Made by a program: the position numbers and the translations under genes | Notes under the pieces: generated by a model | Told to the model about the DNA's origin: nothing | What the model saw: only the letters and a program-made list of their open reading frames with translations | Databases searched by the model: none | Shown: in pieces, positions 10,362-60,998 of the stretch | Numbering within the stretch: the first letter of the stretch is position 1 | How the letters are laid out: every line of letters starts with the position of its first letter | NCBI RefSeq assembly: GCF_000730285.1 | Contig: NZ_CP007174.1 | Span: 744,001-808,000, forward strand | DNA: 64,000 bases | Direction of reading: 5' to 3' | Source: Candidatus Nitrososphaera evergladensis SR1 | GTDB lineage: Archaea; Thermoproteota; Nitrososphaeria; Nitrososphaerales; Nitrososphaeraceae

Positions 10362-10763
10362 ATGCGAAATTCATCTCTGAGTGTAATAACAGCGGGTAAT
10401 GCAACATGTAAAGATCTTCTGTCTTGTATGTATGACCTTTCTTCCTCTGATATGGCATTGCTGGCATTATTGCTTAGGGAAGCAAAACCCCAGACTTTGG
10501 ATGAACTTGCCGATTCAATGGATCGAGATAGAGGCACCGCGTTCAGGTCGCTTCAGAGGCTAGTCAGCCTAGGCTTTTGTACAAAGCAGACTGTAAATCT
10601 GAAAGAGGGGGGTTACAAGCACCTCTACAGTTCTGCAGGTATTGAGCAGATTGAAAAGAATGCAGAACACCGTGTAAAAGAGATACGGTCTTCATTGAAT
10701 CGCTTGATGAAAAAGTTCCGTCAAGATATCCGATATATGGCTGCTGCTACTTCTGAGCAATGA
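10362..10763 (+). CDS. TrmB/MarR-like winged-helix regulator
   Basis: 133 residues. It has a winged-helix core: DMALLALLLREAKPQTLDEL, ADSMDRDRGTAFRSLQRLVS as recognition helix, then a wing GYKHLYSSAGIEQIEKN. A C-terminal helix follows (VKEIRSSLNRLMKKF), likely for dimerisation. Two Cys near the N-terminus (TCKDLLSCMYDL) and one in the wing (GFCTK) could sense redox state. ATG 10362 lies about 25 nt after TATA-like CTTTAATAG, so it is leaderless. It diverges from thioredoxin across an inverted repeat and probably controls both. Confidence 0.75.
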   Translation: MRNSSLSVITAGNATCKDLLSCMYDLSSSDMALLALLLREAKPQTLDELADSMDRDRGTAFRSLQRLVSLGFCTKQTVNLKEGGYKHLYSSAGIEQIEKNAEHRVKEIRSSLNRLMKKFRQDIRYMAAATSEQ

Positions 10764-10930
10764 CGACGATAAACAACTTTCGCCCTTCATTTGCAAACCT
10801 TTGGCAATTCTCAAAGAGAACAGCAAAAAGAAAAGAAGGAGGATGTTCAGGCTGAGAGAACTCCTTTTATTTCCTTTACCTTCTCAAGAACCATTTTCCT
10901 GACATTCATTTCCATTGTTCATTGAACTCT

Positions 10931-10949
10931 CTGCCATGCAGTGTACACC
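10931..10949 (+). promoter_or_regulatory. TGC-N2-TGCASTGYA box upstream of 10997
   Basis: CTGCCATGCAGTGTACACC, followed by a TATA-like GATAAGAAATA at about 10956 and the ATG at 10997. A clear match to the shared box. Confidence 0.6.
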
Positions 10950-13313: not shown

Positions 13314-13925
13314 TCACTCCCTCAGATATTTGGCAGTACTTTGTGTACTTCTATTGTCATCGTTTGTAGTTTTTATCACGATAGTTTTTGCAGCTCGGCT
13401 CAACAATCTCTGCCTTTTGTCATTTGTAAATATCCATCCGAAGAAAACATCTATTGGCAGAAGAAATGCTTTTCCAAAGCTAGAGATTGCGATGCTTGTC
13501 GTATCTGCTTGATTGCCTTCCAGGTTTGTTGTCCTGATGTGCAAAAGCATCTTTCCTATCGATCGACCCTCGTGTCTTGATTCCATGTATGTCCAATACG
13601 CAAAAAACACCAGACTGCTTATGGCAAAGCTAAAAGGCCCACCAAAGCCGCCGTTCCACCACCATTCCCCACCGATATACGGTAGTGATGAAGTCATCAT
13701 CCCTCTTGTCATCATGATCATTCCTGGATTCGTAAATCCATAAAGCCACATTGGCATTGATAGCAAGCCAAACAGTACTGCTAGAGCGACATTTACCACC
13801 ATGAAATCAACAAGCCACGCCCAGAATCTTGTACTCCACTTTGCCAAAATTATCTCTGGATTCTGCGTAGGGGGCCGATCGCCACCGGCAGCGCCATTAG
13901 GTTGATTCTTTGGATTCATGGACAT
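13314..13925 (-). CDS. RDD-family membrane protein
   Basis: 203 residues. A polar N-terminus precedes the RDD domain: WSTRFWAWLVDFMVVNVALA, a Met-rich loop (NPGMIMMTRGMMTSS), a second helix, and SRHEGRSIGKMLLHIRTTNL characteristic of RDD proteins. RDD proteins are integral membrane proteins of mostly unknown transport or stress function. It is the first gene of a four-gene-length unit ending with flavodoxin, driven from a boxed promoter. Confidence 0.85.
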   Translation of the reverse strand: MSMNPKNQPNGAAGGDRPPTQNPEIILAKWSTRFWAWLVDFMVVNVALAVLFGLLSMPMWLYGFTNPGMIMMTRGMMTSSLPYIGGEWWWNGGFGGPFSFAISSLVFFAYWTYMESRHEGRSIGKMLLHIRTTNLEGNQADTTSIAISSFGKAFLLPIDVFFGWIFTNDKRQRLLSRAAKTIVIKTTNDDNRSTQSTAKYLRE

Positions 13926-13971
13926 GAATGTATGTGTCTTTCCACTTTATCATATTAGAATACATGGATTT

Positions 13972-13989
13972 CACTGCAATGCACTGCAG
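13972..13989 (-). promoter_or_regulatory. TGCA box upstream of the RDD operon
   Basis: Minus strand CTGCAGTGCATTGCAGTG, followed by the TATA-like TATTCTAATATG at 13951-13962 and then the RDD start at 13925. This controls RDD, the membrane protein and flavodoxin together. Confidence 0.65.
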
Positions 13990-14018
13990 ACTTGATGTGG
14001 TATCTTAAGTCGAACTCC

Positions 14019-14649: not shown

Positions 14650-14846
14650 AATCAAGCTGTTGTGACAAGTTCGAGTCAATATGGAAGCCCGGATCAAACA
14701 TCGGAGCATCGAATAGGCAGGTATTTGCTGTTTGACAGTCAGGCGCCCTGCATGAGAAAGTCGCTCATCGTTAATTTTACAAGGTCGGTCACACGTAGGG
14801 TATTGCAGTGGCAGAAAGTGTGGCTATTGTTTCTTTTATCAGAATT

Positions 14847-14867
14847 CACTGCACGGCACTGTACTCT
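14847..14867 (+). promoter_or_regulatory. TGCA box upstream of 14907
   Basis: CACTGCACGGCACTGTACTC, followed by TATA-like CTTAATTAT at 14871-14879. An almost identical copy lies at 32150-32170 in front of a degraded copy of the same gene. Confidence 0.65.
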
Positions 14868-14906
14868 CTCTTCTTAATTATGAACTGGTCAAAATTACTC
14901 ACAGAT

Positions 14907-15296
14907 ATGTCAGAAACAAAGTTAGTTGCTCTCGAAGATGTTAGGAGCCAATTTACAAAGCTAAGAGAAACATATGAAAAGGTACTTCCGAAGGTGGACC
15001 CTGCCCTTCTCAATGACTTTTTGGAAAGAGAAGGTGTAACCAGCGACCCAAAATCCTACACAATCGAAGTATTTACAAGGGAAGGCGTCGACGTAGAGAC
15101 AGCTCGTCAATACATCCTTGCTAAAACAGGCATGGCTCCGGCCATTTTTGACAATGGCACACACTACGTTACCAATCAGAAGCTGACCTTGGAGATGCTC
15201 AAGGAGATATCTGACTCGGAAGACGTGGTAGAAGTCAGAGGAAACTATTGTGGCGGATTGGGAATGAAAGGCGCTTATTTTGAGAGGCGGTCATAA
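14907..15296 (+). CDS. Hypothetical soluble protein with a degraded paralogue at 32.2 kb
   Basis: 129 residues from ATG 14907, placed about 30 nt after TATA; the alternative ATG 14881 overlaps the promoter. The N-terminal half is helical and charged (EDVRSQFTKLRETYEKVLPK, LLNDFLEREGVTSDPKS); the C-terminal half (TARQYILAKTGMAPAIFDNG, then TLEMLKEISDSEDVVEVRGN) resembles a small alpha/beta domain with one Cys (NYCGG). No family recognised. Confidence 0.65.
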   Translation: MSETKLVALEDVRSQFTKLRETYEKVLPKVDPALLNDFLEREGVTSDPKSYTIEVFTREGVDVETARQYILAKTGMAPAIFDNGTHYVTNQKLTLEMLKEISDSEDVVEVRGNYCGGLGMKGAYFERRS

Positions 15297-15442
15297 TCGG
15301 GTTTTATTCCCTTCCTCCCGACCCCCACCCTTTTCTTTCGTCTTTTCTCCAAAAATCTACTTCCGTCGAACATCAATGAAAAGACTCTCCCCTTTTTCAC
15401 GCTCGGAGTTGTGCAACGTTTTTAGTCGTTGATCAATTGTAC

Positions 15443-15462
15443 AATGCGTGGCAGTGCAATCC
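15443..15462 (+). promoter_or_regulatory. Partial TGCA box upstream of the DUF998 gene
   Basis: AATGCGTGGCAGTGCAATCC, about 85 bp upstream of the DUF998 frame, with another half-like ATGGACAATGCAATCC near 15498. The box is present but no convincing TATA lies at the usual spacing. Confidence 0.35.
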
Positions 15463-15545: not shown

Positions 15546-16253
15546 TTGCTTATTTGTGGCATCATTGCTCCTCCACTTTACGCTGGTACTGACATACTCG
15601 CGGGAACTCTATATCCTGACTACAGCTTCACTGATCAAGCTGTAAGCGAGCTGTTTGCAATCGACGCTGCGACAAGCGGCCTTGTAGTTTCACTTTTCAC
15701 TGTATATTCTCTCCTTATGTTCACATTTGCGTTAGGCGTTTGGCTCTCGACTGGTCGGAATCGCGCTCGCCGGCACATGCTGGCTTTTATGCTGATTGCA
15801 AACGCGGTCAACGGGCTGGTGTTGTGGAATTTCTTCCCACTGCACATGCGTGGCGCCGAGATGACGTTCACCGATACAATGCATGTGATTCTCGCAGCAA
15901 TGGGCGGCATCTTTGGTTCGCTGGCCATAGGATTTGGGGCAGTTACATTTGGAAAGCGGTTCCTGTTCTACTCTGTAGCGGCAGTCGTGATGCTCTTTGC
16001 GCCTACCATTCTGGCATTCTCGTTCGTACCGCAAGTAGCCGCAAACTTCTCCGTGGTTAGGGCTCTTGGAGCGTATCGCATTTGCGGGCTATATGCAATG
16101 GCAGATAGTACTATCTGTCGTTCTTTTGCGCGAGAAGAGTGGTCGTCCACAACCTCGTATAGGGGGACTTCCAAAGAGGCCCAATGAGGAGGCAATCTCC
16201 CTTCTTTTGTGCGGGAGTTGTACGCATAATGCAAGCAGTGATCAGAAAAAATG
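15546..16253 (+). pseudogene. DUF998 membrane protein gene, frameshifted near its 3' end
   Basis: The main frame from TTG 15546 matches DUF998: LICGIIAPPLYAGTDILAGT, YPDYSFTDQAVSELFAIDAA, and four to five membrane helices. Near 16060 the sense moves to another frame, which continues LLERIAFAGYMQWQIVLSVV then LLREKSGRP, the expected last helix, up to TGA 16253. The original frame instead gives an unrelated Ser/Arg-rich tail to 16187. The family is usually about 200-220 residues. The ATG at 15536 is out of frame, so the 5' end may be damaged too. A sequencing error is possible. Confidence 0.65.
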
Positions 16254-16908: not shown

Positions 16909-17030
16909 ATTCTCTTAGCAGAAGGGTGCGAGTGCATCATTAAAAAGATTACATTGGCATTTCTGCGTATATGCTTCTCCTGCTTCGCAATCTATTCTTC
17001 GCAGGTCTATTTCGATTCGAAGAGTACACG

Positions 17031-17050
17031 CACTGCGCTGCAGTGCAGTC
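17031..17050 (+). promoter_or_regulatory. TGCA box upstream of the alcohol dehydrogenase
   Basis: CACTGCGCTGCAGTGCAGTC, then TATA-like GAAATAGT at about 17058, then ATG 17089. This spacing supports a leaderless start. Confidence 0.6.
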
Positions 17051-17088: not shown

Positions 17089-18150
17089 ATGACCCAGACC
17101 ATGCTTTCTGCAAGGCTCCATGAGTATCAAAAACCCTTGATAGTGGAAAACGTCAAAGTTCCAAATGCGCTAGGAGAAGGCGTAGTAGTAAAAGTTGGTG
17201 GCGCAGGATTGTGCCATAGTGACCTGCACTTGATAAATGGCGAATGGAAGAATGCCATACCTCTTGCACTGCCAAAGACACCGGGGCACGAAGTTGCAGG
17301 CTGGGTAGAGGAGATGGGCAACTTGGTCCCCAAGGGAATGTTTGAGAGAGGCGATCTAGTTGCAGTGTTTGGCGGCTGGGGATGTGGTTCCTGCCTCGCA
17401 TGTAAAAGGGGTGACGAGCAGATGTGCCTCATTGCAAAATGGCCAGGGTTGTCGCAACACGATGGAGGCTACTCGCAGTACATCGCAGTGCCTTCGTACA
17501 GATTTTTAATAAAAGTGGAGGGTTCAAGGCTGAGACCTGAAGAGATTGCACCGCTGACAGATGCAGGTCTTACTCCGTACCGCGCAATCAGAAGATTTCG
17601 CCACGTACTTGTGCCTGGAACTGCAATTGCGGTAATAGGTATTGGAGGGCTAGGCTCGTACGGGATCCAGTATGCCAAGATGCTTGCGCCAAATTCAACC
17701 ACAATAGCCGTCGACAGAAGTGACAAAAAACTAAGGTTCGCAAAAAATCTTGGAGCAGAGCACGCAATCAAGTTGTCAGAAAACACGAGAAAAGAAGTGA
17801 TGGAGATAACTCAAGGCCGCGGGGTTGATGTCGTTGTCGATTGCGTAGGTGCAGAAAATACTATTTCTGCCTCCGTGGCTCTTCTTGCAAAGGGCGGCGC
17901 GCTTACGCTAGTCGGCCTTTTTGGTACTAAAATATGTGCGCCATTGATGTCTACCGTAATAAACGAATATCAGATAACTGGCTCGCTATGGGGAAACTAT
18001 AACGAGCTTCGTGAAGTTATAGAGCTGGCAAAGCAGGGCAAAGTAAAGCATACGATTCAGACATTCAAGCTTGAGGACATCAACAATGCGATAAACCTGC
18101 TGAGGAACGGGCAAATAACAGGAAGGGCGGTCATCACGCCTAACCAGTAA
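17089..18150 (+). CDS. Zinc-dependent alcohol dehydrogenase (MDR family)
   Basis: 353 residues from ATG 17089 (the upstream frame to 16954 runs through the promoter). Catalytic zinc ligands in GAGLCHSDLHL and TPGHEVAG; structural zinc loop CGSCLACKRGDEQMC (C-x2-C-x2-C-x7-C); Rossmann motif GIGGLGSYGIQYAK; C-terminal cap GRAVITPNQ. It oxidises alcohols or reduces aldehydes with NAD(P); the substrate cannot be read from the sequence. Its 3' end overlaps the convergent CBS gene by 11 nt. Confidence 0.92.
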   Translation: MTQTMLSARLHEYQKPLIVENVKVPNALGEGVVVKVGGAGLCHSDLHLINGEWKNAIPLALPKTPGHEVAGWVEEMGNLVPKGMFERGDLVAVFGGWGCGSCLACKRGDEQMCLIAKWPGLSQHDGGYSQYIAVPSYRFLIKVEGSRLRPEEIAPLTDAGLTPYRAIRRFRHVLVPGTAIAVIGIGGLGSYGIQYAKMLAPNSTTIAVDRSDKKLRFAKNLGAEHAIKLSENTRKEVMEITQGRGVDVVVDCVGAENTISASVALLAKGGALTLVGLFGTKICAPLMSTVINEYQITGSLWGNYNELREVIELAKQGKVKHTIQTFKLEDINNAINLLRNGQITGRAVITPNQ

Positions 18151-18943
18151 GGCCCAAGCCTTTTATCACAAGGTCCCAAGGTGTTAATATCATGCCATCT
18201 GCAAAAAGACACGACGTTCCGATATCTGAGAAGAAATGCGCCATAGAGCCTGCGGCGCCCTTTGGATCTACGCGTATTCCCTTGATCGCGCCAAGGCCGC
18301 TTAGCTTCATGGTTGCAAGCACCTCAAAGCCCCTGCGTAACACAAGTTCTCTTGTTTGAGAGCGGAGCAGGTATGCAAGAAACTTTCTGTCGTTGATTAC
18401 ATACGGATGAATATCCTGCTCGAGAAAGACAAGGTTTCGTACGCCCTTTTCCACCATGAAGGAAAGTGCATCCAATACGCTTGCATCCTTATCAATGGTT
18501 AGGAGTGGAGACGCAAGCTTTTGTACCTCAACCTTTAGTCCCTTGGCATGATCTATCAAGTCCCTGAGAGACAGTGAAGCAACAATTCTGTCGTTGGATG
18601 CCACTGGCATGAATGCAAACTTTGTCTCCCTGAAAACCTGTAACGCCTTTCCAAGTGGGTCATTTTCCTGCAATGGACGCTCAAGAGCTTCCATTATTTC
18701 CGAGACTTCGCCGTCAAGCCACCTTTCCCTTGTTTTTAGAATGTGGCTTACAAGGGCGTATCCGCCTATTCTGCCTACAAGCTTCTTCTTGTTTTCTTCA
18801 ATCATGACCAGACCATCAACGTAGATCTGAGGACCTGTGGCTAGAAAGGTGGCGGCCTGAAGCACAGAGTCCGAAGGGTTTACGTACAGTAACGGCCTTT
18901 GAAAAATATGAGGCGCTACCTCCTTTATGGAGATATCTTGCAA
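18140..18943 (-). CDS. Four-CBS-domain protein
   Basis: 267 residues. Tandem CBS domains: LLYVNPSDSVLQAATFLATG (first), VSEIMEALERPLQENDPLGK (second), PLLTIDKDASVLDALSFMVE then KGVRNLVFL (third), and a degenerate fourth. CBS pairs bind adenosine nucleotides and act as energy or redox sensors. The effector and partner are unknown. It lies 15 nt after the small HTH gene, so both form an operon behind the palindrome and box at 19128-19196. Confidence 0.85.
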   Translation of the reverse strand: MQDISIKEVAPHIFQRPLLYVNPSDSVLQAATFLATGPQIYVDGLVMIEENKKKLVGRIGGYALVSHILKTRERWLDGEVSEIMEALERPLQENDPLGKALQVFRETKFAFMPVASNDRIVASLSLRDLIDHAKGLKVEVQKLASPLLTIDKDASVLDALSFMVEKGVRNLVFLEQDIHPYVINDRKFLAYLLRSQTRELVLRRGFEVLATMKLSGLGAIKGIRVDPKGAAGSMAHFFSDIGTSCLFADGMILTPWDLVIKGLGLTG

Positions 18944-19148: not shown

Positions 19149-19177
19149 AATGATCAAAGGGATAAAGTACAAGACTT

Positions 19178-19196
19178 CAGTGCGTGGCAGTGCACT
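19178..19196 (-). promoter_or_regulatory. TGCA box upstream of the HTH/CBS operon
   Basis: Minus strand AGTGCACTGCCACGCACTG, about 10 nt upstream of the TATA. The region 19197-19386 holds no gene that I can see. Confidence 0.6.
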
Positions 19197-19386
19197 TGAA
19201 AGAAAAAATGCGGTGTCGTCGTAGTACGCAAAATCGAAATCCCAACAAAAGTGGTGCAATTGCGGCCCTGGCTGAAATTAGAATAACCAGCCCTGCGTAA
19301 TGAAAAGATCATAGTTTAGCCGCGCTGCAATGTCCATTATCATCATCCCCACCGTAATTGTCTACGATAAATTCTAGTGCGATGTT

Positions 19387-20769
19387 CTAATCTTTGCCGT
19401 TACGGCAGGGCAAGCGATATTTTCTCTTAAGGACCTCATAGGCCACAGCTCCTGAGACTGCTGCCCCTGTGCCTGCCACCACAGTGACTAAATCAAACTG
19501 AGTGAGCATTGCAATCGAAGTTACTATGCCAATACCAGCAAGCACTGGAAATTTCCCTATGCTCCAAGGTGAACGAAAAGGCCTTTTCATCTCCGGTTGT
19601 TTGTACCTGAGCCGTATCAGTGAAAGATTGACAAACACATAGACCATGAATATTCCAAACACTGCAACCTTGGCGACTGCGTCTATTCTTCCCGAAGATG
19701 TCGCCATGACTCCTATTGTAAGCACCATGATGGTGATTATGGCACGGAATGGTGTCTTGGTCCTTGGATGAATTTCAGACAGCGAGGAGGGAAGTGCATT
19801 GTCAGTTGCCATTCCGAACAGGATGCGTGACCCCGATATGAGCATCATTAGTACTGTGTTACTTGTAGCAAAAAGCGCTATTGACGACAGGATGACAGTT
19901 CCTGCCTTGCCAAACACCTTCTCCGCGGCAAACGTGAGAGGAGCATTTGTCGACGAAAGTCCTTCCCACCCTACAATTGCAACTGCTGATACTGCTACTA
20001 GTATGTAGATGCCAGTCGTAATTGCTATGGATACTACAAGCGCAATTGGAATGGCTTTGCGCGCATTCTTGGTTTCTTCTGATATGTTTGCCAAGTTTTC
20101 AAATCCAAAATAGGCAAAGAACGCAAGGCCTGCAGCGCTCACTATGGCAGCAAGAGCGAGTGGAAACGAAGAGGAGGGGGACGAAGAAGTTACTTCCGGT
20201 GGCATTTCAAAATAGTCCGTTGCCGCAGGAGAGGCTAGAAACAGGCCGGCGCATATGATTATGGCGAGACCTGCAATCTCTATTAGGGCAAATGTGGTGT
20301 TCATCCACATCGATTCGCGAATTCCAACAAAGTTTACGCCAGAAAGCACAGCAACAAGCAATATTGCAGAGACAGACCGGTCAAGTCCTGGCAAAAGGGC
20401 GTCAAGATAACTGGAAAAGCCAATTGCTACTGCGGCTGCAGACACTACTGCAACAAATACTATGAGCCATCCGGAGACAAATGCCAACAAATTGTTGCCA
20501 AAAGCATTCTTGACAAACACATACTCTGCTGCGCTCTTTGGAAAAATTGAAGTCATCTCTGCATAGCTAAGCCCGGTAAAGGTGGCAATCGCCGCGGCCA
20601 AAGCAAACGAGATCCACATTGCATTGCCTGCGATGCCTGCGACATCGCCTATCAGAACATATATTCCAGCACCAAGGATTAGGCCAGTGCCATACATTAT
20701 CGCCTGAAAAAGGCTTATACTCTGCTTCAGGCGCAAGTCGCTAGTCTTTTTCAATTCGATCCCTGTCAT
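19387..20769 (-). CDS. APC-family amino-acid permease
   Basis: 460 residues with about 12 membrane helices. Family signatures: QAIMYGTGLILGAGIYVLIG in helix 1, FTGLSYAEMTSIFPKSAAEY, the AFFAYFGFENLANISEETKN helix 6 loop, and RSPWSIGKFPVLAGIG in the cytoplasmic connection. It imports amino acids or polyamines. The start codon overlaps the stop of the UspA gene by 4 nt; with the CBS and UspA genes it forms a three-gene operon, suggesting that the sensors tune the transporter. Confidence 0.92.
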   Translation of the reverse strand: MTGIELKKTSDLRLKQSISLFQAIMYGTGLILGAGIYVLIGDVAGIAGNAMWISFALAAAIATFTGLSYAEMTSIFPKSAAEYVFVKNAFGNNLLAFVSGWLIVFVAVVSAAAVAIGFSSYLDALLPGLDRSVSAILLVAVLSGVNFVGIRESMWMNTTFALIEIAGLAIIICAGLFLASPAATDYFEMPPEVTSSSPSSSFPLALAAIVSAAGLAFFAYFGFENLANISEETKNARKAIPIALVVSIAITTGIYILVAVSAVAIVGWEGLSSTNAPLTFAAEKVFGKAGTVILSSIALFATSNTVLMMLISGSRILFGMATDNALPSSLSEIHPRTKTPFRAIITIMVLTIGVMATSSGRIDAVAKVAVFGIFMVYVFVNLSLIRLRYKQPEMKRPFRSPWSIGKFPVLAGIGIVTSIAMLTQFDLVTVVAGTGAAVSGAVAYEVLKRKYRLPCRNGKD

Positions 20770-21200
20770 TTGGTGATCAGGACAGAAATCTTGGAGCTGT
20801 GCACTACGGCATTTGAAACGCTTCCAAGGAAAAGTTCCTTGACGCCTCCGAGTCCCCTGCTGCCCATGACTATCAAGTCTGCATTCATTGCCTTTGCTGC
20901 ATTTAGTATCGCTTTGGCAGGACTGCCCTCTCTGAGAAGGATATCAGCCTTGATTCCGTGTAACTCGACCTCGCGTTGTTGTTCCGCAAGAAAGGCCTTT
21001 GCATCTCTTCTGTAGAAGAGCAGGATCTCTGGGGTAAGCTTCTTTCCAAAGCCAACAGTCCTTGGAATCTGAAGAACGTGTATGATTGTAAGGGAGCCAT
21101 TGGATGCCTTGACAATCTTTATGGCTGACTCTAACGCCTTTCTCGCACACTCTGATCCATCCGTCGCGACAAGCACCTTTGAATACACTTCTTTTCTCAT
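20766..21200 (-). CDS. Universal stress protein (UspA family)
   Basis: 144 residues. SKVLVATDGSECARKALESA and the nucleotide-binding VMGSRGLGGVKELFLGSVSN mark the ATP-binding type. It lies between, and overlaps by 4 nt with, a two-CBS protein and an APC permease, so all three are made together. UspA-transporter partnerships are known elsewhere; direct regulation here is an inference. Confidence 0.92.
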   Translation of the reverse strand: MRKEVYSKVLVATDGSECARKALESAIKIVKASNGSLTIIHVLQIPRTVGFGKKLTPEILLFYRRDAKAFLAEQQREVELHGIKADILLREGSPAKAILNAAKAMNADLIVMGSRGLGGVKELFLGSVSNAVVHSSKISVLITK

Positions 21201-21700
21201 CTGCCACCCTGCGGTTGGTATATCTCACTCAGCATGAATTCCGAAAGCCTTTCGTAGATTGGCCTATACTCGATGAGCACGCTGTCACCTATTGTGCTTG
21301 ATACCAATTCTTGGCTCTTTAATATGGCACGGAAAATATCCTTGTCAGTTACAATGCCAACCATCTTGCCCTTTTCAACGACGGGCAATCTACGAATATT
21401 TTTGGACTGCATCGTCTGTAGGGCATCCTTTAACGACATCATCGTATCAGCCGTTACGACTGGCTTTTTCATCACGCTTTTTGCAGCCGCTGCGAATGAT
21501 GTTTTGGGAGAACCTACAAGCCGAACTATGTCGCGCTCTGTGATTATGCCTGATGGGGAGCCTTTGTTGTCTACAATCACGACGCTTCCAATGTCGTTCT
21601 TGTCCATAATCTCTACTACGGTCCTTAGGGTCTGACCCTCGCCTGCCGTCCTAACTTCTTTGGTCATAATACTCGATATTGGTATGGTCTCTATGCTCAT
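21197..21700 (-). CDS. CBS-pair protein
   Basis: 167 residues with two CBS domains: ISSIMTKEVRTAGEGQTLRT followed by GIITERDIVRLVG, and SVMKKPVVTADTMMSLKDAL followed by GIVTDKDIFRAIL. About 40 residues of helical tail follow. First gene of the CBS-UspA-permease operon. ATG 21700 follows TATA-like GATATAAAATAT (21722-21733) with the shared box upstream. Confidence 0.9.
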   Translation of the reverse strand: MSIETIPISSIMTKEVRTAGEGQTLRTVVEIMDKNDIGSVVIVDNKGSPSGIITERDIVRLVGSPKTSFAAAAKSVMKKPVVTADTMMSLKDALQTMQSKNIRRLPVVEKGKMVGIVTDKDIFRAILKSQELVSSTIGDSVLIEYRPIYERLSEFMLSEIYQPQGGR

Positions 21701-21742
21701 AGGGCACGTTTGGCTCCGTAATATTTTATATCTAGGAATCTA

Positions 21743-21760
21743 GTGCATTGCACTGTATAC
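21743..21760. promoter_or_regulatory. TGCA box shared by two divergent operons
   Basis: GTGCATTGCACTGTATAC (near-palindromic core) lies between a minus-strand TATA at 21722-21733 and a plus-strand TATA-like CAATATATC at about 21767-21775. One site therefore serves the CBS-UspA-permease operon to the left and the CBS/zinc-finger-UspA-RHH operon to the right. Confidence 0.75.
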
Positions 21761-21796
21761 ACGCACAATATATCGCTCCCTCATGTTAGTTAGGCC

Positions 21797-22351
21797 ATGC
21801 AGGCCGATCTTGAAAGAAAGGTTGGAGAGCTGGCGACTCCGGAAATTCTTGTGATGGACGAGTTGTCTACAGTTGCGCAAGCAGCAAAGGCAATGAAGAA
21901 AAAGGACTCTTCGAGCGTATTTGTATCTCGAGGAAGTACAAAAGATCTAGTGGGAATTATTACCGAGAGGGATATACTTTATAGAGTAGTTGCAGAAAAC
22001 ATGGGGCCCTTCAAGACAACCTTGAAAGAGGTCATGAGCGCTCCGCTTATCATAATCGATTATTCTGCAACTGTGCTAGAGGCGATCCTTCTCATGAGAA
22101 AGGAAGGAATAAGGAGGCTTCCTGTTAGAAGAGATGGAGGTATAGTCGGTGTTGTAACGCTTTTATCGATCACGGGCAACATCCCAAGCAAGAGTGTTGA
22201 GGCAGGACAGGTTGAGACAAGTCTGGGCAGCAGTGGCATAGCCTGCCCATACTGTGGATCAGGCTTTGAGAGCAAAAAGGATCTCTCAAAGCACATCGAT
22301 AGGCTGCACATTGGAAGCGGCCTTCTGGAAGGCGACCTGAGGCAGATCTGA
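21797..22351 (+). CDS. CBS-pair protein fused to a C2H2 zinc finger
   Basis: 184 residues: two CBS domains (LVMDELSTVAQAAKAMKKKD with GIITERDILYRVV; VMSAPLIIIDYSATVLEAIL with VGVVTLLSI) followed by a zinc finger CPYCGSGFESKKDLSKHIDR ending LH. The finger suggests DNA or protein binding under nucleotide control. Leaderless ATG 21797. The next gene, UspA, starts 7 nt after its stop. Confidence 0.9.
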   Translation: MQADLERKVGELATPEILVMDELSTVAQAAKAMKKKDSSSVFVSRGSTKDLVGIITERDILYRVVAENMGPFKTTLKEVMSAPLIIIDYSATVLEAILLMRKEGIRRLPVRRDGGIVGVVTLLSITGNIPSKSVEAGQVETSLGSSGIACPYCGSGFESKKDLSKHIDRLHIGSGLLEGDLRQI

Positions 22352-22357
22352 GCAAAA

Positions 22358-22807
22358 ATGTATCGCAAGATACTCGTTCCGTACGAAGGTTCACAGTTCT
22401 CTGAAAGAGCGGCAGAACACGCGGCATACCTTGCGAAGTTGTCAGGTGCAAAGGTTACGTTTCTTACCGTCACGGCGCTTCCTTCTCTTATCTATACATA
22501 CAATGAGGCCGTAAACGCAGCAATAAGCGAAGCCGCGGAGCTTCTCATCATGTCATCTGAATCGCCTGTCGTCAGATCATTAAAGTCGCGAGTAGAAAAA
22601 TGCAAAAAACGGGGTATAGATGCGAAGCTCGTACATACCGTTGGCGACCCTGCAATGCTAGTGTTAGAGACCGCAAGAAAAGAAGGGACCGACCTAATAG
22701 TTTTGGGAAGCAAGGGCCTCAAAGGTGTGTCAAAGCTCAAGGTGTTCGGAAGCGTTGCGCGTAAAGTTACAGAGCTCTTAGTATGTCCGGTTCTCCTAGT
22801 GCATTGA
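22358..22807 (+). CDS. Universal stress protein (UspA family)
   Basis: 149 residues. YRKILVPYEGSQFSERAAEH and VLGSKGLKGVSKLKVFGSVA mark the ATP-binding UspA type. Second gene of the operon led by the CBS/zinc-finger protein. Confidence 0.92.
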   Translation: MYRKILVPYEGSQFSERAAEHAAYLAKLSGAKVTFLTVTALPSLIYTYNEAVNAAISEAAELLIMSSESPVVRSLKSRVEKCKKRGIDAKLVHTVGDPAMLVLETARKEGTDLIVLGSKGLKGVSKLKVFGSVARKVTELLVCPVLLVH

Positions 22808-22854
22808 AAAAAGGCTTTTTAGGGCGAGTTTCACAGCTGACACTGTATACACAT

Positions 22855-23466
22855 ATGTCCGGAGACTCTGTAGGCCCAGAAGCTTCCTCTTCCTATCAGT
22901 CAAAAAAGACTCGCAGTGTCACATTCAGGATCGACTCTTCCGTAATAGATGAGCTGCAGGGCGAGGCGGACACGCGTGAAATTTCACTCAACGTCCTTGT
23001 CAACCAGGTGCTCAAGCGCTATGCAGAGTGGGACAGGTACGAGAGCAAGATTGGAATGATGCCAGTGCCAAAACTGATGCTTTCGACACTTATTGACAAG
23101 GCGATATCTTCTGCGAAGGCAGGAGGTATAAAGGAGGTGGAAGTGTATCGAGACCTTATTGTAAAGGAGGCTGCACAGATCGCCTTTAACCTGATGAAAG
23201 ATTCGGTGCTTTTCATGAAGAAGCACTATAATCTATGGGTAGTACTCTCGGTTCTTGAAGAGTACATGAAGGTCTCAGGCATAAAGGCAGATCATAGGAT
23301 AGAAGGATCAAGCAAGCATGTCTTTGTGGTTCAGCACGAGCTTGGTGAGAACTGGTCCCTCTTTACAAAGGAGCTCCTTACTCTCATATTTCAGAACCTT
23401 GCAAAGGTAAGGGCAGACATTCATGTCACGCCAAATACCACTGTCGCAGAGGTTATTTTGAGGTAG
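22855..23466 (+). CDS. RHH-type N-terminus with conserved C-terminal domain (paralogue at 32.3 kb)
   Basis: 203 residues from ATG 22855, preferred over 22783, which would overlap the UspA gene. Residues about 16-60 (RSVTFRIDSSVIDELQGEAD, then ISLNVLVNQVLKRYAEW) look like a ribbon-helix-helix DNA-binding domain. The C-terminal domain has KHVFVVQHELGENWSLFTKE, conserved in the paralogue as HIFVIQHNMGENWSHYMGRL. A putative regulator. A CTGACACTGTATACACAT sequence immediately precedes the start and resembles half of the shared box. Confidence 0.7.
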   Translation: MSGDSVGPEASSSYQSKKTRSVTFRIDSSVIDELQGEADTREISLNVLVNQVLKRYAEWDRYESKIGMMPVPKLMLSTLIDKAISSAKAGGIKEVEVYRDLIVKEAAQIAFNLMKDSVLFMKKHYNLWVVLSVLEEYMKVSGIKADHRIEGSSKHVFVVQHELGENWSLFTKELLTLIFQNLAKVRADIHVTPNTTVAEVILR

Positions 23467-23479
23467 ATGTCGAGATAAA

Positions 23480-23498
23480 CTGCAATGCACTGCAATCC
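23480..23498 (+). promoter_or_regulatory. TGCA box upstream of 23543
   Basis: CTGCAATGCACTGCAATCC, followed by TATA-like GGTTATTTATC at 23503-23513. An excellent match. Confidence 0.65.
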
Positions 23499-23542
23499 GA
23501 CAGGTTATTTATCGATGCGTCGTATTGTTGGCAAAGGTGAAC

Positions 23543-23941
23543 ATGTATACTGTGATGCCTAAAAGCAATGTCAAAGGTTCTGACGGCCGAGAGGGCATCG
23601 TGTACAGGTTCTTCAAGCTGATAGAGGACAAAGACATAGATGGACTTCTTGACCTGTTTGACTGCGACGCGACAGTTTACGAACCCTTCAGTAAAACCCA
23701 AGGACTGCATGGCCGGTCATTAATCGAGCCGTTTCTCAAGGTGGCCATGATGGCAAACAACAATATGCGTCACAAGATCAAGATACCTGATTCAGGGAAG
23801 AGTCATCTGGATGGCCAGTTGACCGCCCTTGTTACCTTTGAGCTAGGTGACAGAGCAAAGGCGCGCTTTATTTTTGACCTCGAGCCGGACGAGCAAAAAG
23901 CGTGGAAGATAAAAACCCTCCACATCAACTTCCTAACATAA
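23543..23941 (+). CDS. SnoaL/NTF2-like protein
   Basis: 132 residues from ATG 23543 (TTG 23525 lies before the expected transcript start). The SnoaL-like pattern is clear: YRFFKLIEDKDIDGLLDLFD, then ATVYEPFSKTQGLHGRSLIE, and the final strand KAWKIKTLHINF. Such folds form dimers and act as isomerases, hydrolases or binding proteins; no catalytic residues can be assigned. It stands alone behind a boxed promoter. Confidence 0.8.
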   Translation: MYTVMPKSNVKGSDGREGIVYRFFKLIEDKDIDGLLDLFDCDATVYEPFSKTQGLHGRSLIEPFLKVAMMANNNMRHKIKIPDSGKSHLDGQLTALVTFELGDRAKARFIFDLEPDEQKAWKIKTLHINFLT

Positions 23942-24118
23942 TAATAAGAAAACCAGTGTATTATCATAGCAGGTCAATCTTCTATTTCTAATACCTATCT
24001 TACGACGTTTCCAAGACCCCTCCTATCTCTGCTCTTGAAAACTGTTCCATCGTAGGGCACCAGAACTCTTAAACCACCATCATAATCGAGAGCGCGGTAT
24101 CTACGAGAAATGACTATA

Positions 24119-24137
24119 CTGCAATGCACTGCATGCC
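24119..24137 (+). promoter_or_regulatory. TGCA box upstream of 24172
   Basis: CTGCAATGCACTGCATGCC, then TATA-like GCTTAACTATG at about 24142, then the leaderless ATG 24172. Confidence 0.65.
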
Positions 24138-24171: not shown

Positions 24172-24477
24172 ATGCTCCTTGGAAAAGAACGAAGGGCAGA
24201 GGAATCACCAGAAAGCCAAGTCCTGCCTCATGAGGATCTGAATTCAAGACAACGGAAGATTACAGGTGAGAATTTCCCCGATACTGTACTTGAATTTTGC
24301 GACTCTTGTCATTGGTGTGCAACCTGCATGAATGGGAAACGGATGCAAGTAACCTGTCCTATATGCAGAAGGCGAACTTCTAGAATTCCAATGACTATGG
24401 ACGAAACATGCGTACTTGAAAAGGATGAAAAACGCGGCATCACGCTCCGCTTTGTTAGAAGGCTTCCGCTCCGATAA
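24172..24477 (+). CDS. Small zinc-ribbon protein
   Basis: 101 residues. A polar N-terminus, then FCDSCHWCATC and TCPICRRRTSRIP, five or six Cys suited to one or two zinc sites. No family name recognised. It precedes another small Cys-rich gene with its own boxed promoter. Confidence 0.65.
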   Translation: MLLGKERRAEESPESQVLPHEDLNSRQRKITGENFPDTVLEFCDSCHWCATCMNGKRMQVTCPICRRRTSRIPMTMDETCVLEKDEKRGITLRFVRRLPLR

Positions 24478-24568
24478 CTATAGTGAGGCCATTTCTAGCT
24501 TGATTTGGTATTATTCGTGCATGCAAAAGATTTTTTCAAATATTTTGAAACGGCAGAGTGCATATGCA

Positions 24569-24587
24569 TTGCCATGCACTGCATACC
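24569..24587 (+). promoter_or_regulatory. TGCA box upstream of 24664
   Basis: TTGCCATGCACTGCATACC, then TATA-like CTTTGAAATAGG at about 24591. Box and TATA lie inside the longest open frame (from 24505), arguing that translation starts further downstream. Confidence 0.55.
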
Positions 24588-24663
24588 AGACTTTGAAATA
24601 GGAAGATTTCATCAAACTGCTTGTGGCACAATCCAACACGTATCACAATGGCAAAGAACTTCA

Positions 24664-24915
24664 TTGGACAAAAGTGATAAACGGTATTTTGACGAGAAGG
24701 CTGTCAAAAAAAGCGATGTTAAAGTCAAAAAACGACTGTGCGATAAGGAGGGAACTAATTTGACCAGAATGCGACAACCCCACAGCTTTCACGAAGTAAA
24801 GATACACAACCCTGAGACTATATGCATCAAGTGTGGCACGGCGACTCCAAATGTTTGTGAGTGGTGTGGGGCATGTCAGGCATGCCATACAGGTACAAAA
24901 AGAGACCCTTACTAA
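24664..24915 (+). CDS. Small Cys-rich (zinc-ribbon-like) protein, start uncertain
   Basis: 83 residues if TTG 24664 is used; ATG 24769 would leave a 48-residue protein with the complete metal motif; a frame from 24505 passes through the promoter. The C-terminus has CIKCGTATPNVCEWCGACQA followed by CH, which suits one or two zinc or cluster sites. The N-terminal part is Lys/Asp-rich. Function unknown. Confidence 0.5.
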   Translation: MDKSDKRYFDEKAVKKSDVKVKKRLCDKEGTNLTRMRQPHSFHEVKIHNPETICIKCGTATPNVCEWCGACQACHTGTKRDPY

Positions 24916-26409: not shown

Positions 26410-27867
26410 TTACTCAACAATCACCGTTCCTTTCATCCAAGGGTGAAGCATGCAGTAGTAATCGAACTTGCCTTCCTCCTTGAACGCATGCTGCCACTTT
26501 GCTCCAGCCTGTACGAAGCCTGAATCAAAGATGTTGTTCACTTCTGTCACTGTGTGGATCGCATTATCATCGTTTGTCCATGTGACCGTAGTTCCTTCGT
26601 GAACACTTACGGCCGCGGGCACAAACGGCTTTGTAATATCAGGAGTCGAAGATCCTTTCACAATTGTTACCGCATCTGCCTTGACTGCAGTCACGTTTCC
26701 AGCAGCGTTTTCCTCAGCATTATTGCTGCCGCCATGATGATTGGAGTGCATGGATGATGGCGGCATTGATGCTTGGCCAAGGTTATCATATTCAGTCAGC
26801 TTTGCCTTTTCAAGACTCTCTATGCGTTGTTCTTGCCATTCGATCATGGACTTACTTTGCGGCATGTTGCTTGGCTTTTCAAGCGCCTTCAGTTGCGTGT
26901 CATTGTCAAGCACGTCTAGAAATGCCATTGAGCCTCTCTCTTCCTGTATTCCATGAACATGAAAGAGGTATCTGCCCGGCTCATCCCATTTAGCTTCAAT
27001 TATTGCCGTGTCGCCATTAGCAACAAGGTGTGTCTGCGCCCAGTGCGGAGCGTTCCACAATATTCCCGATTGCCATACTTTGAATAATGTACTGTGGATG
27101 TGGAAGGGCGACTGAAGAACGCCACCAATTCCTATTACGTAGAATCTTGCAGTTTCGTTCTTTACTACCCGGATTGGTTCTTCCATGTACTGGTCTGCAT
27201 AACCGTTAATGGGGTAGAACTGCGTAAAGTTTGCAAGAGCGTTAGTAGGATCAAGCTCGCTCAGGACAAACAGGTATTCCCTTGCAGGTTGCATTGGATG
27301 GTGAACAGGATCAATGATCATGGCTCCGTACATTCCCATTCTGACGTGCTCTGTTGTAGGAAACGCGTGGCAGTGATACATAAACAGACCCGCTTCTTCT
27401 GCAGTGAAATTGTAGACGTATTGCTGTCCCGGCAACACTTGTGGAATTACACCATCGTTGGCTGAATTGTGGGAGCCGTGAAAATGGAGTGTGTGAGAGT
27501 ATGGAGTCTTGTTGATGAACTTGACTGTAACGCTGTCGCCTTCATTAAATCTCAGTGTGGGCGCCGGAACTGTGCCATTGTACGTCCAGACCTTTGCTTT
27601 TACGCTCTTGGCTACTTCGATCTCTGCGTTCTGCGCTATCAGTGTATATTCTCTATGTTGAGGATTTGGATTGCTGGCCTTGGGATAAACATCATTTGCG
27701 GTGATATATGCACCGGATGATATAGGGGAAACGGTGCTTAGCTGTTCTTGTTGTTGCTGCTGAGCCTGAGAAATAAATCGAGTCTCAAAGATGAATACAA
27801 AGACCATACTCAAAGTAATGCCCATAACTAGTCCTGCTACGAGGTACCAGATTGCAGGTCTTTTCAC
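26410..27867 (-). CDS. Two-domain multicopper oxidase with C-terminal plastocyanin-like domain
   Basis: 485 residues. N-terminal signal/anchor helix (AIWYLVAGLVMGITLSMVFV). Domain 1: TLHFHGSHN and MYHCHAFPTTEHVRMGM (type 1 Cys/His/Met and His pairs); domain 2: PFHIHSTLFKVW and LFHVHGIQEERG. A linker (residues about 345-390) with Met/His-rich stretches leads to a cupredoxin: IHTVTEVNNIFDSGF and FDYYCMLHPWMKG (Cys-x2-His-x2-Met). It probably oxidises a substrate or reduces nitrite/O2 outside the cell, with the extra domain as electron donor; NirK versus blue oxidase cannot be decided from sequence alone. The GTG start at 27867 has GGTGAGG just upstream. Confidence 0.9.
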   Translation of the reverse strand: MKRPAIWYLVAGLVMGITLSMVFVFIFETRFISQAQQQQQEQLSTVSPISSGAYITANDVYPKASNPNPQHREYTLIAQNAEIEVAKSVKAKVWTYNGTVPAPTLRFNEGDSVTVKFINKTPYSHTLHFHGSHNSANDGVIPQVLPGQQYVYNFTAEEAGLFMYHCHAFPTTEHVRMGMYGAMIIDPVHHPMQPAREYLFVLSELDPTNALANFTQFYPINGYADQYMEEPIRVVKNETARFYVIGIGGVLQSPFHIHSTLFKVWQSGILWNAPHWAQTHLVANGDTAIIEAKWDEPGRYLFHVHGIQEERGSMAFLDVLDNDTQLKALEKPSNMPQSKSMIEWQEQRIESLEKAKLTEYDNLGQASMPPSSMHSNHHGGSNNAEENAAGNVTAVKADAVTIVKGSSTPDITKPFVPAAVSVHEGTTVTWTNDDNAIHTVTEVNNIFDSGFVQAGAKWQHAFKEEGKFDYYCMLHPWMKGTVIVE

Positions 27868-28047
27868 AAATCCTCACCTGGTCTAAGAGCTATTAAATCA
27901 AAACCTATTTTCATTTTGAATTTATCCTCTTTGTTATCTCGCAAACATGACATTGCATTTGCATCTCACAGATTCTAATTCCAATAGAGATCATTTCTTG
28001 GTCGAACCAAAATGACCGCGAATCAGTTCTTAACCCCTATGTATGCA

Positions 28048-28065
28048 CCGCCATGCACTGTACCC
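28048..28065 (+). promoter_or_regulatory. TGCA box upstream of 28107
   Basis: CCGCCATGCACTGTACCC, then TATA-like GGATAATAG at about 28073. The multicopper oxidase diverges 180 bp away and is not obviously served by it. Confidence 0.55.
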
Positions 28066-28106: not shown

Positions 28107-28721
28107 ATGACGGCAGGACCAATGTCCAGAGTTGGAAACGAGAAGGATAAGTGGACCAAAAGGTTTATGGCAGCAGCTATCGTCCAAGGGGCAATTGTTG
28201 CGGGGTTAACAATCTTTCTGCTGCTAAGTCAGATATCGTTTCTAAAACCAGAAATATCCAGAGTTATTGCAGGAGGTGGTGCAGGAACATGGTTTACTTT
28301 CGGTTACGTTATGTATATCATCATCGGCGTCATTGGCGTAGCGGTATCTGCGTTGTTTTATCATTATCTTGAAAACGTAGTGGGAAAGCGCATGCAAAAG
28401 GGTGCAGATGTCTTGGCTTGGGTCCACCTCATTCTGATGAACATAGGAACTGTCGCCACAATGGGCATGCTGATGTACGCTGGGTACATTGGAGGAGCGT
28501 CAATGCTGCCACAAAGCGTTGGAGGGAAGGGCTATAACGCGGGACAAGCCCACGAGATTCTAGCACCCTTTGTCGAGCCCATATCGGCAACTGTAATCAT
28601 GATCGTGATAGGAGTCATAGCAGGTGGGGCGGGCTTTCTTCTCACTTATAGCTCCACATCATCTGGCAGAGAGTCTTTTTCCGAAAGGAGAAGAGGAAAG
28701 GGCGCTACGGAGGCTGCGTGA
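28107..28721 (+). CDS. Four-helix membrane protein of unknown function
   Basis: 204 residues with four predicted membrane helices (IVQGAIVAGLTIFLLLSQIS, FGYVMYIIIGVIGVAVSALF, HLILMNIGTVATMGMLMYAG, PISATVIMIVIGVIAGGAGF). His residues near helix ends (FYHYLEN, LAWVHLIL) recall the heme-copper oxidase fold but are too few to claim it. It faces the multicopper oxidase, so a respiratory or copper role is conceivable. Arg-rich cytoplasmic C-terminus. Confidence 0.6.
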   Translation: MTAGPMSRVGNEKDKWTKRFMAAAIVQGAIVAGLTIFLLLSQISFLKPEISRVIAGGGAGTWFTFGYVMYIIIGVIGVAVSALFYHYLENVVGKRMQKGADVLAWVHLILMNIGTVATMGMLMYAGYIGGASMLPQSVGGKGYNAGQAHEILAPFVEPISATVIMIVIGVIAGGAGFLLTYSSTSSGRESFSERRRGKGATEAA

Positions 28722-31069: not shown

Positions 31070-31281
31070 CAAGAATTGAGCCTCTTTCTGCTAGTGAAAA
31101 CCTCCAAGGTTGTGCACAATGTATTTGACCTTTTGTGCTTGTCATGATTTGTCGTGATTCCAGCGATTAAAACTACGTTAGAACGTAAAATCGCCAAGAC
31201 GTTATCTGCCCCATGCTAACAACATTATTTTTGTGTGTGTACGACGCAGAACGTAGTAGATGGTTCTTTTGACCCTTCTTA

Positions 31282-31304
31282 TGCAGTGCATGACAGTGTA
31301 CTCT
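31282..31304 (+). promoter_or_regulatory. TGCA box upstream of 31340
   Basis: TGCAGTGCATGACAGTGTAC with TATA-like GCTAATAGG at about 31309. The downstream GTG 31340 fits the leaderless spacing. Confidence 0.6.
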
Positions 31305-31339
31305 CCCTGCTAATAGGTGTGTTATGTGAAAACCATGTT

Positions 31340-31801
31340 GTGTCTCAAATACCGCCACTGAGAATAAGTGATGGCAAGTTAGTATTGATCGCGCTAGTGG
31401 GAACGATAGCTGCATTTGGCATATTGCTAGTACTTGTAAGTGGCGGCGCGGTGAGGCACGTCGCCATATTCCTGCCCGAAAAGACGGAAGATACAATAGC
31501 CTTCAGGAATATCGATGGTGAGGTACAGGTAATGGGCGTCAAAGGGATCGCAGGCGTAAACCCTACTTTGCTCACAAGAACAGGGGACTATGTACTTGAA
31601 CTTACTGTCATAAATGAGGATGACAGAGTTCACGTGCTCTATATTGATGGAGGAATTCATACTAAAGTACTCAGGCCAGGAGACAGCGATGTGATAACAT
31701 TTCATTCAAAAGATGAGGCAACGTACAACTATTATGATTGGGGTTCAGGTAGAGGTCCACTCGGTCAGATACAGGCGATCAAAGTGACCATGTATGAATA
31801 G
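31340..31801 (+). CDS. Membrane-anchored cupredoxin-like protein lacking copper ligands
   Basis: 153 residues from GTG 31340. An N-terminal anchor (KLVLIALVGTIAAFGILLVL) is followed by a beta-sandwich pattern of cupredoxin type (GIAGVNPTLLTRTGDYVLEL, DDRVHVLYIDGG, KDEATYNYYDWGSGRGPLGQ). The usual Cys and Met ligands are replaced (YNYYDW where C-x2-H is expected), so it may not bind copper. Extracytoplasmic. The longer frame to 31235 passes through the boxed promoter. Confidence 0.65.
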   Translation: MSQIPPLRISDGKLVLIALVGTIAAFGILLVLVSGGAVRHVAIFLPEKTEDTIAFRNIDGEVQVMGVKGIAGVNPTLLTRTGDYVLELTVINEDDRVHVLYIDGGIHTKVLRPGDSDVITFHSKDEATYNYYDWGSGRGPLGQIQAIKVTMYE

Positions 31802-32117: not shown

Positions 32118-32149
32118 TTGATAGCGTAATCAAAAATTTCTTTGGATTT

Positions 32150-32170
32150 CACTGCACGGCACTGTACTCT
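32150..32170 (+). promoter_or_regulatory. TGCA box, duplicate of the 14847 site
   Basis: CACTGCACGGCACTGTACTC, identical to 14847-14866 including adjacent bases, followed by TATA-like CTTAATAC at about 32176. It now precedes a degraded gene copy and the gene at 32319. Confidence 0.6.
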
Positions 32171-32194: not shown

Positions 32195-32385
32195 GGATTA
32201 TGGCTATGTTAGAAATAATCCTGTTAATCGTGCACCAAGACGTTAAAGGTCAGTTTACAAAACCAAAAGAAACGTATCAGGAGAAAGTACAGCAAAAAGG
32301 AGGATCCCCTGCTTCTCCATGACCATCTGGAAAGAGAAGGTGTATCTGGCAAGCCAAAATCACACACAACAGAGGTATCACAGAC
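32195..32385 (+). pseudogene. Degraded copy of the 14907 gene
   Basis: The DNA aligns with 14907-15065: for example GGAAAGAGAAGGTGTA occurs in both, AGTTTACAAAACCAAAAGAA matches AATTTACAAAGCTAAGAGAA, and CCAAAATCACACACAA matches CCAAAATCCTACACAA. The copy has frame breaks and stops after a few dozen codons, and its 3' half is replaced by the 32319 gene. Confidence 0.65.
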
Positions 32386-32936
32386 CTCGACACTTGGCTT
32401 ATCCTACAGAGGCTGCCACATTCAGGTTTGACAAAAAGCTTCTGGCTCAACTCAGGCTAGAATCTAAGGAGAAGCGAATCAATCTTAACACAGTGTTAAA
32501 TCAGATTGTAAGATCTCATATCGAATGGCATGCAAATGCAGCAAAAGCTGGATTTATGCCAATTAGAAAAGCGCTAATCAAAAGGCTGTTTGATCCGATG
32601 ACCAAAGAACAGATAGATGCTCTGGCGGCTGATGTCTCGCGAGGCTTAATAGAAGAGACCATGATGATTATTATGACAAGCCAGCGTACAGAAGAACCAG
32701 TCTTTGAACTATTGGAGAGGTGGATAAGAGTATCTGGCTTTAACTATCGTCACGAAGTGACTGACGATAGTCATATCTTTGTAATTCAGCACAATATGGG
32801 AGAGAACTGGTCGCATTATATGGGTCGATTGTTTGAAGAAGCTGCATCAGAATTCATGAGAGTCAAACCAGATACCCAAGTTACAGAAAATGCACTTTTC
32901 ATTAGGATTAGAGAGGTTTACGACAAAGACCTGTGA
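32319..32936 (+). CDS. RHH-type protein, paralogue of 22855-23466
   Basis: Up to 205 residues; the first about 25 derive from the degraded copy upstream, so the true N-terminus is unclear. The RHH-like region ATFRFDKKLLAQLRLESKEK then RINLNTVLNQIVRSHIEW is followed by the conserved C-terminal domain with HIFVIQHNMGENWSHYMGRL. Overall similarity with 22855-23466 is obvious across its length. It seems to have been fused to the promoter and 5' part of another gene. Confidence 0.65.
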   Translation: MTIWKEKVYLASQNHTQQRYHRPRHLAYPTEAATFRFDKKLLAQLRLESKEKRINLNTVLNQIVRSHIEWHANAAKAGFMPIRKALIKRLFDPMTKEQIDALAADVSRGLIEETMMIIMTSQRTEEPVFELLERWIRVSGFNYRHEVTDDSHIFVIQHNMGENWSHYMGRLFEEAASEFMRVKPDTQVTENALFIRIREVYDKDL

Positions 32937-33437: not shown

Positions 33438-33707
33438 CTAGTCTGATCTAGGATCGCCTCTCTTACTTCCCCATGCTCGCTGCTGCTTCATACCCCAAGA
33501 GACCCAAGTGGCCCCCATTATTGCCATAAAGCCTATGAGAATCACAACAACGACTGCAATATTCTGATAAACGTTAAAGTTCTCGGCGTAGAAAAACAGC
33601 CACAGAATGATGCCAATTACAGAACCGAAAAATGTGAGGATAGATAGAGCTATTCTCCAACCCATTCCTTGAGAGGTATTAGTATTATTATTTGCTGTCG
33701 TTTCCAT
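33438..33707 (-). CDS. Small two-helix membrane protein
   Basis: 89 residues: Asn/Thr-rich start, helices WRIALSILTFFGSVIGIILW and NIAVVVVILIGFMAIMGATW, and a charged tail. No family recognised. ATG 33707 follows TATA-like CTATATTGTTG with the shared box upstream. Confidence 0.65.
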   Translation of the reverse strand: METTANNNTNTSQGMGWRIALSILTFFGSVIGIILWLFFYAENFNVYQNIAVVVVILIGFMAIMGATWVSWGMKQQRAWGSKRGDPRSD

Positions 33708-33747
33708 GCAAAACTATCTTCCTTTTTCAACAATATAGGTAGTAGGT

Positions 33748-33765
33748 TTGCACTGCCATGCAAAC
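33748..33765. promoter_or_regulatory. TGCA box between two divergent small genes
   Basis: TTGCACTGCCATGCAAAC on the plus strand. TATA-like sequences lie on both sides (minus at about 33729-33738, plus TGTATTTTG at 33770-33778). It serves 33707 to the left and 33810 to the right, the second divergent arrangement after 21743. Confidence 0.65.
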
Positions 33766-33809
33766 AAAATGTATTTTGACTGGGGAAAAATCCTTGGCTT
33801 CTCATTGTC

Positions 33810-51089: not shown

Positions 51090-51095
51090 TGCGCA

Positions 51096-52385: not shown

Positions 52386-52416
52386 GATAATAATGGCTGC
52401 GCCCTGACATGCCTCT

Positions 52417-54110: not shown

Positions 54111-54117
54111 TACAAAG

Positions 54118-60978: not shown

Positions 60979-60998
60979 TTTGGAATATGCACCTAGTG

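Follow-up and report, generated by a model that had tools for sequence, protein, structure and literature searches.

A 25-bp palindromic box in the spacer between two divergent stress operons was analysed in a window of 64,000 nucleotides (bases 744001-808000 of a single-contig genome of 2,954,373 bases; the host is an ammonia-oxidising archaeon from soil). With a probability of roughly two thirds, the box acts as an upstream activating site that would serve two core promoters, its most likely binder being RHH1, a putative regulator encoded in the right operon. The finding is considered real, and comparison between genomes lends good support to its central interpretation; from sequence, spacing, conservation and linkage we infer binding by RHH1, activation and a stress response. 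The coordinates of all features are listed in Table 1.

The earlier note on this DNA had described a CBS-Usp-permease operon on the left and a CBS/zinc finger-Usp-RHH-like operon on the right, and the Pfam matches agreed with these contents, the zinc finger of 21797-22351 being weak (zf-C2H2_4 at 4e-4, under the curated cut-off). The three reading frames of the left operon overlap. The spacer between the operons comprises 96 nt (21701-21796). As had been proposed, a TATA box is present on each side at a similar distance from the centre of the box (20 and 21 nt), and ATG codons are found at both predicted starts (21700 and 21797), each 28 nt beyond the aligned T of the TATA box. This is the spacing expected for leaderless transcripts, and by this measure both starts are probably leaderless.

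The near-palindromic box that had been placed at 21743-21760 is real, but its extent was too short: the full box includes 7 nt more at the left. It was identified as a degenerate copy of GWWTGCASTGCAWTGCASTGCAWWC, in which four TGCA units follow each other 5 bp apart; the inner two units of the window's box are perfect and the outer two degenerate. GWWTGCASTGCAWTGCASTGCAWWC is the consensus of promoters of related genomes that were aligned on their TATA boxes, a 25-bp palindrome with an information content of 25.9 bits. The scoring matrix was trained on these relatives only, without the window. On this matrix the box reached 28.4 bits, compared with a best score of 21.6 in 60 shuffled windows. 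In the relatives the core of the spacer is retained as TTGTGCATTGCACTGCAAACAT, and the same motif was found in related genomes, another family included. Palindromes of the 6-1-6 size numbered 20 in the window versus 16.2 expected by shuffling, no notable excess. Symmetry alone of the core proves nothing, because such palindromes are common by chance; the significance of the box lies in the repeated motif and its conservation, not in the palindrome itself.

No gap was needed to align the TATA-box-TATA arrangement of the spacer with that of seven other Nitrososphaera genomes (G005, G007, G011, G012, G014, G015 and G016), and both TATA boxes are clear in all of them. The spacing in the window was taken directly from the window sequence and is identical to that of the aligned relatives. 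In G008 the right side of the spacer aligns and the left TATA box is unclear. The earlier argument that a symmetric core explains action in both directions fits the palindromic motif, whose geometry is therefore identical towards either side. This alignment, together with the promoter geometry and the two-sided boxes described below, gives strong support to the view that one symmetric box serves two divergent, probably leaderless stress operons.

The motif recurs in the window and in the genome. Three exact copies of the three-unit pattern TGCANTGCANTGCA were found in the window, with 0.005 expected from shuffles (the pattern read backward contains CpG and is hence a weak control). With up to one mismatch, 12 copies were counted versus 0.45 expected, and with up to two mismatches 34 versus 5.6. 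Sites scoring at least 12 bits on the relatives-only matrix numbered 16 in the window, versus 0.97 in shuffles. At least 14 boxes are located between 10.9 and 33.8 kb of the window, a wider regulon which the earlier note had overlooked. In the whole genome, 16 distinct sites with up to one mismatch were detected: 8 in a 20-kb stretch of the window, another 4 grouped in 5.5 kb near 2.92 Mb, and 4 isolated ones. The second four-box cluster (2921719-2927212 of the same genome) lies beside Usp and multicopper-oxidase genes.

Table 1. Features of the window, with positions counted from its first base and matrix scores of boxes in bits.
Feature	Position	Strand	Remarks
Palindromic box GAATCTAGTGCATTGCACTGTATAC	21736-21760		25 bp; centre 21748; read directly and by matrix score
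Perfect 6-1-6 palindromic core AGTGCATTGCACT	21742-21754		centre 21748
TATA box of left promoter TATAAAATATT	21720-21730	-	aligned T 21728, 20 nt from box centre
TATA box of right promoter AATATATC	21767-21774	+	first T 21769, 21 nt from box centre
Left operon gene 1, two-CBS-domain protein	21197-21700	-	PF00571, 8e-32
Left operon gene 2, universal stress protein (Usp)	20766-21200	-	PF00582, 2e-34
Left operon gene 3, amino-acid permease	19387-20769	-	PF13520, 2e-52
Right operon gene 1, CBS protein with C-terminal C2H2-like zinc finger	21797-22351	+	PF00571, 3e-21
Right operon gene 2, universal stress protein	22358-22807	+	PF00582, 6.5e-28
Right operon gene 3 (RHH1), ribbon-helix-helix-like, C-terminal sensor-like domain	22783-23466	+	
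Outlying box	10924-10948		18.7 bits; no gene assigned to it
Box before RDD-family gene (13314-13925, -)	13967-13991		29.5 bits
Box before gene 14808-15296 (+)	14842-14866		23.4 bits; real start of the gene probably within the listed frame
Box before DUF998 gene (15546-16187)	15437-15461		16.5 bits
Box before zinc alcohol dehydrogenase gene	17026-17050		17.4 bits
Box before small HTH gene and CBS gene 18140-18943 (-)	19173-19197		17.8 bits
Box before NTF2/SnoaL-like gene (23525-23941)	23473-23497		22.6 bits; perfect three-unit core
Box before RING-like gene 24172-24477	24112-24136		27.5 bits; perfect three-unit core
Box within or before 24505-24915	24562-24586		26.2 bits
Box before membrane protein gene 28107-28721	28041-28065		21.4 bits
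Box before cupredoxin-like gene 31235-31801	31279-31303		19.7 bits; real start of the gene probably within the listed frame
Box before RHH paralogue 32319-32936	32145-32169		23.2 bits; 162 nt before the gene
Box named in the earlier note as 33748	33746-33770		15.3 bits; one-sided promoter for 33438-33707 (-)

Several features of the surrounding DNA were recorded in addition. The RING-like zinc protein, whose gene is preceded by a box, is kept in the island of the relatives. The frame 26410-27867 encodes a multicopper oxidase (NirK-like) with a fused C-terminal cupredoxin. Past 48 kb (48001-64000) the G+C content is higher, about 0.53 compared with about 0.44 before.

The motif was then used for an analysis of promoter geometry across genomes. 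A TATA-like hexamer starting 16-23 nt from the three-unit centre was present in 66 of 318 flanks (159 boxes), versus 16.9 +- 3.8 in shuffled flanks under the same test and 4-6 in control intervals. The ATG codons of the resulting 65 box promoters peaked 28-30 nt after the TATA T, i.e. at leaderless spacing, and in 50 of these promoters the frame so opened runs for 60 codons or more. The distance of the TATA box from the three-unit centre showed two peaks, at 17-18 and 22-23 nt. These correspond to a single four-unit array taken in two registers, with the array centre 20-21 nt from the TATA box. In family f9, the spacing of both TATA box and ATG was unchanged.

Two-sided use was assessed with a laxer TATA definition and with a start codon required on each side. 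By this test 22 of 184 boxes, from two families, were bidirectional. Their TATA boxes are located 18-22 nt away in both directions and most of their starts at 48-51 nt from the centre; the gene pairs served include CBS with CBS-zinc finger, Usp with RING-like and, in family f9, a multicopper-oxidase-like gene with another gene. The box at 21748 was the sole box of the window to pass. The earlier note had stated that the design recurs at 33748. A box with a TATA box and a start for 33438-33707 (-) does occur there, but on the plus side the TATA candidate is a poor TATTTT and the frame just 43 codons long; a two-sided promoter at this position was judged unconvincing, the box having failed the two-sided test. 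The plus-strand frame to the right of it (33813-33944, unlisted) possibly encodes a small membrane protein.

That the palindrome arose by chance or is non-regulatory (a hairpin or a dispersed mobile repeat), with two independent promoters, is most improbable. The chance frequency of 6-1-6 palindromes as such would agree with it; the ungapped conservation, the recurrence of the motif and the fixed promoter geometry across genomes and families refute it as far as sequence allows. A mobile repeat was rejected on the observation that the sites vary in sequence outside the TGCA units, yet stay in register with the TATA box.

For the box as an activating site, the following course is proposed. Its centre lies some two turns of the DNA away from either TATA box (20 and 21 nt) and slightly beyond the BRE position on each side, where a bound regulator could recruit TBP/TFB to either side. 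The symmetric site would present the same geometry in both directions. RHH1 probably binds the TGCA units as RHH dimers, and units 10 bp apart would lie on the same DNA face. RHH1 is made from the right operon, and the loop would therefore be autoregulated. The same code probably controls a stress regulon of Usp, CBS, multicopper oxidase/cupredoxin, permease and VIT1 genes, which is clustered in this island and common to related archaea of two families.

Archaeal activator sites directly adjoin the BRE on its upstream side, and a distance of 21 bp from the primary site to the TATA box is critical (PMC7408454; cf. PMC6737238). Archaeal activators are typically tied to weak core promoters (PMC7408454). 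The BREs of box promoters were compared with those of promoters lacking a box. An A at BRE position -4, a position chosen after inspection of the profile, was present in 18 of 63 box promoters and in 16 of the 21 non-box promoters, a small comparison set (p = 2e-4). AA within -4 to -1 was found in 11/63 and 11/21, respectively (p = 0.003). The BRE signature is missing from box promoters, and activation is therefore favoured over repression, by about 3 to 1 in our estimate.

Ribbon-helix-helix (RHH) proteins are repressors more often than activators, and those of the CopG/antitoxin type are usually autorepressors. The box might accordingly be an operator at which RHH1 silences both operons until its C-terminal domain senses stress, as is also suggested by the location of the RHH1 gene in an operon to be controlled and of the site near the core promoter. 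This is regarded as unlikely. The BRE and TATA box are left free and a fixed two-turn spacing is kept at every promoter studied, neither of which a steric repressor needs, and the BREs of box promoters are poor, as are those of activator-dependent promoters.

Three observations suggest that RHH1 belongs to the RHH regulators: its matches to RHH families, which are weak; the prediction of two successive helices; and the name given in the literature to an arCOG that accompanies stress genes of these kinds. The best Pfam match of the window's RHH1 was CopG_antitoxin at 0.005, with no curated RHH cut-off passed. In the RHH1 family the matches were all weak, PF12441 being found in 24 of 25 members (best 1.2e-4) and RHH_1 in 8. 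The best PDB sequence match was antitoxin EndoAI (E = 0.17). AlphaFold2 predicted helices at 27-39 and 44-64 (pLDDT mostly 86-90), with the strand unpaired in the monomer model. The C-terminal domain contains the invariant residues His146, His154, His160 and Trp166 (residues numbered as in row one of the RHH1-family alignment). In fold searches the C-terminal half gave weak V4R/TRAPP/H-NOX-like matches. Those obtained with Foldseek, TPC6/Bet3 and H-NOX (TM 0.4-0.6, high rmsd), rank below de novo designs and are too weak to name a fold.

RHH1 is the most likely binder of the box, as judged by distribution and linkage. Nitrososphaera genomes with many boxes carry a close copy of RHH1 (E < 1e-90), and box-free ones carry none; G002, with a single box, has no close copy. 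In 300 genomes of the order, an RHH1-type gene (E <= 1e-25) was present in 73 of 83 perfect-box genomes versus 64 of 217 box-free ones, counts which were compiled by hand and in which ancestry inflates the test and RHH1 itself belongs to the regulon. Perfect boxes were confined to families f1 and f9 of these 300 genomes, and RHH1 relatives at the same threshold to the same two families, bar one genome each in f2 and f3. The linkage in f9 is more telling than this co-occurrence. Genomes of f9 have just one to four boxes each, and in 17 of 43 a box was located within 3.3 kb of the RHH gene, with 0.31 expected. The box typically precedes a CBS-CBS-RHH operon or is placed in a divergent spacer adjoining the RHH gene. 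The predicted DNA-contact strand is conserved between the two families (RSITFRL in f1, RSITYRL in f9). Exceptions are genera g2 and g26 of the host's own family, which have RHH1 at 50-60% identity and almost no perfect boxes, and G082, which has five boxes and no clear RHH1. About 19 RHH1 relatives are encoded in the genome of the host, including the RHH paralogue 32319-32936.

A real regulon site with another binder, whether its gene is part of the island or not (an HTH factor, say, or the CBS protein through its C2H2 finger), would leave RHH1 as a co-regulated passenger, and the linkage of gene and site would be expected of targets as well. This is considered somewhat unlikely. The boxes in G082 would suit it, as would a fragment of the C2H2 finger that has 70% identity and lies close to a box in G032; a full CBS-zinc finger relative is not strong in this box-bearing f9 genome, a TrmB-type factor is absent from most box-rich Nitrososphaera genomes, and in f9 it is RHH1 that repeatedly adjoins the boxes as a protein of DNA-binding type. 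Two candidates were rejected by name. The TrmB-like factor 10362-10763 is absent (E <= 1e-15) from the box-bearing genomes G007, G008, G011, G014, G015 and G016. Strong full-length relatives of the CBS-zinc finger protein fade beyond the genus, where boxes persist.

The box, read as an activating site of RHH1, was compared with known systems. Its closest precedent is the GvpE site of the divergent haloarchaeal gvpA/gvpD promoters, reported as two overlapping 20-nt activating sequences that share a spacer of 35 nt (PMC9501494, citing Bauer et al. 2008). Both systems have opposite archaeal promoters with a site adjoining the BRE and TATA box of both, and a regulator gene within one operon that is autoregulated (here RHH1, as proposed). 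At 21748 divergent genes, TATA boxes on both sides (with weak BREs) and a fixed 20/21-nt distance were found. Unlike the GvpE sites as described there, which are two and overlapping and are bound by a bZIP-like protein, the present site is one symmetric four-unit TGCA array, probably bound by an RHH protein, and it recurs over a stress-gene regulon.

Ptr2 of M. jannaschii and Tar/TK0271 of T. kodakarensis likewise have a site directly upstream of the BRE/TATA, a spacing of about 21 bp and a recruitment model (PMC7408454, PMC6737238). Both differ in having other DNA-binding folds and were described at one-sided promoters. To our knowledge, the sequence of their sites is unrelated to the TGCA box. 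CopG is known to use TGCA half-sites, and MetJ short palindromes in tandem. RHH1 would resemble CopG, Arc and MetJ in its N-terminus, for which a strand-helix-helix order is tentatively predicted; unlike them, it is fused to a C-terminal domain of about 140 residues with invariant histidines, and it is a probable activator.

Thaumarchaeal integrated elements carry stress cargo comprising UspA, CBS, multicopper oxidase and CopG/RHH arCOG08805 (PMC6563490). The same gene families occur together here, but the present island is kept in conserved order across several Nitrososphaera species, unlike that cargo as presented in the accessible text of the source. Gene content of the elements is what this text reports; the shared cis-element is described here. 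In the searchable literature, outside which most subscription papers lie, no earlier description of the regulon or the site in these archaea was found, and the box apparently marks a large undescribed stress regulon.

Ammonia-oxidising archaea dominate nitrification in many soils and seas. We know of very few of their transcription regulators that have been matched to a binding site. As a tentative extension, an RHH protein with a small-molecule sensor (possibly of the H-NOX/V4R type) might be a global stress regulator of ammonia-oxidising archaea that uses a direction-free four-unit TGCA palindrome to activate Usp, CBS, multicopper-oxidase and cupredoxin genes; the arrangement might date to the ancestor of Nitrososphaeraceae and family f9. 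The analysis yields a precise site together with a fixed promoter geometry, a target list and a candidate regulator. It also provides a clear example of one symmetric archaeal site, proposed to be activating, for two promoters, and natural replicates of it exist in each of two families.
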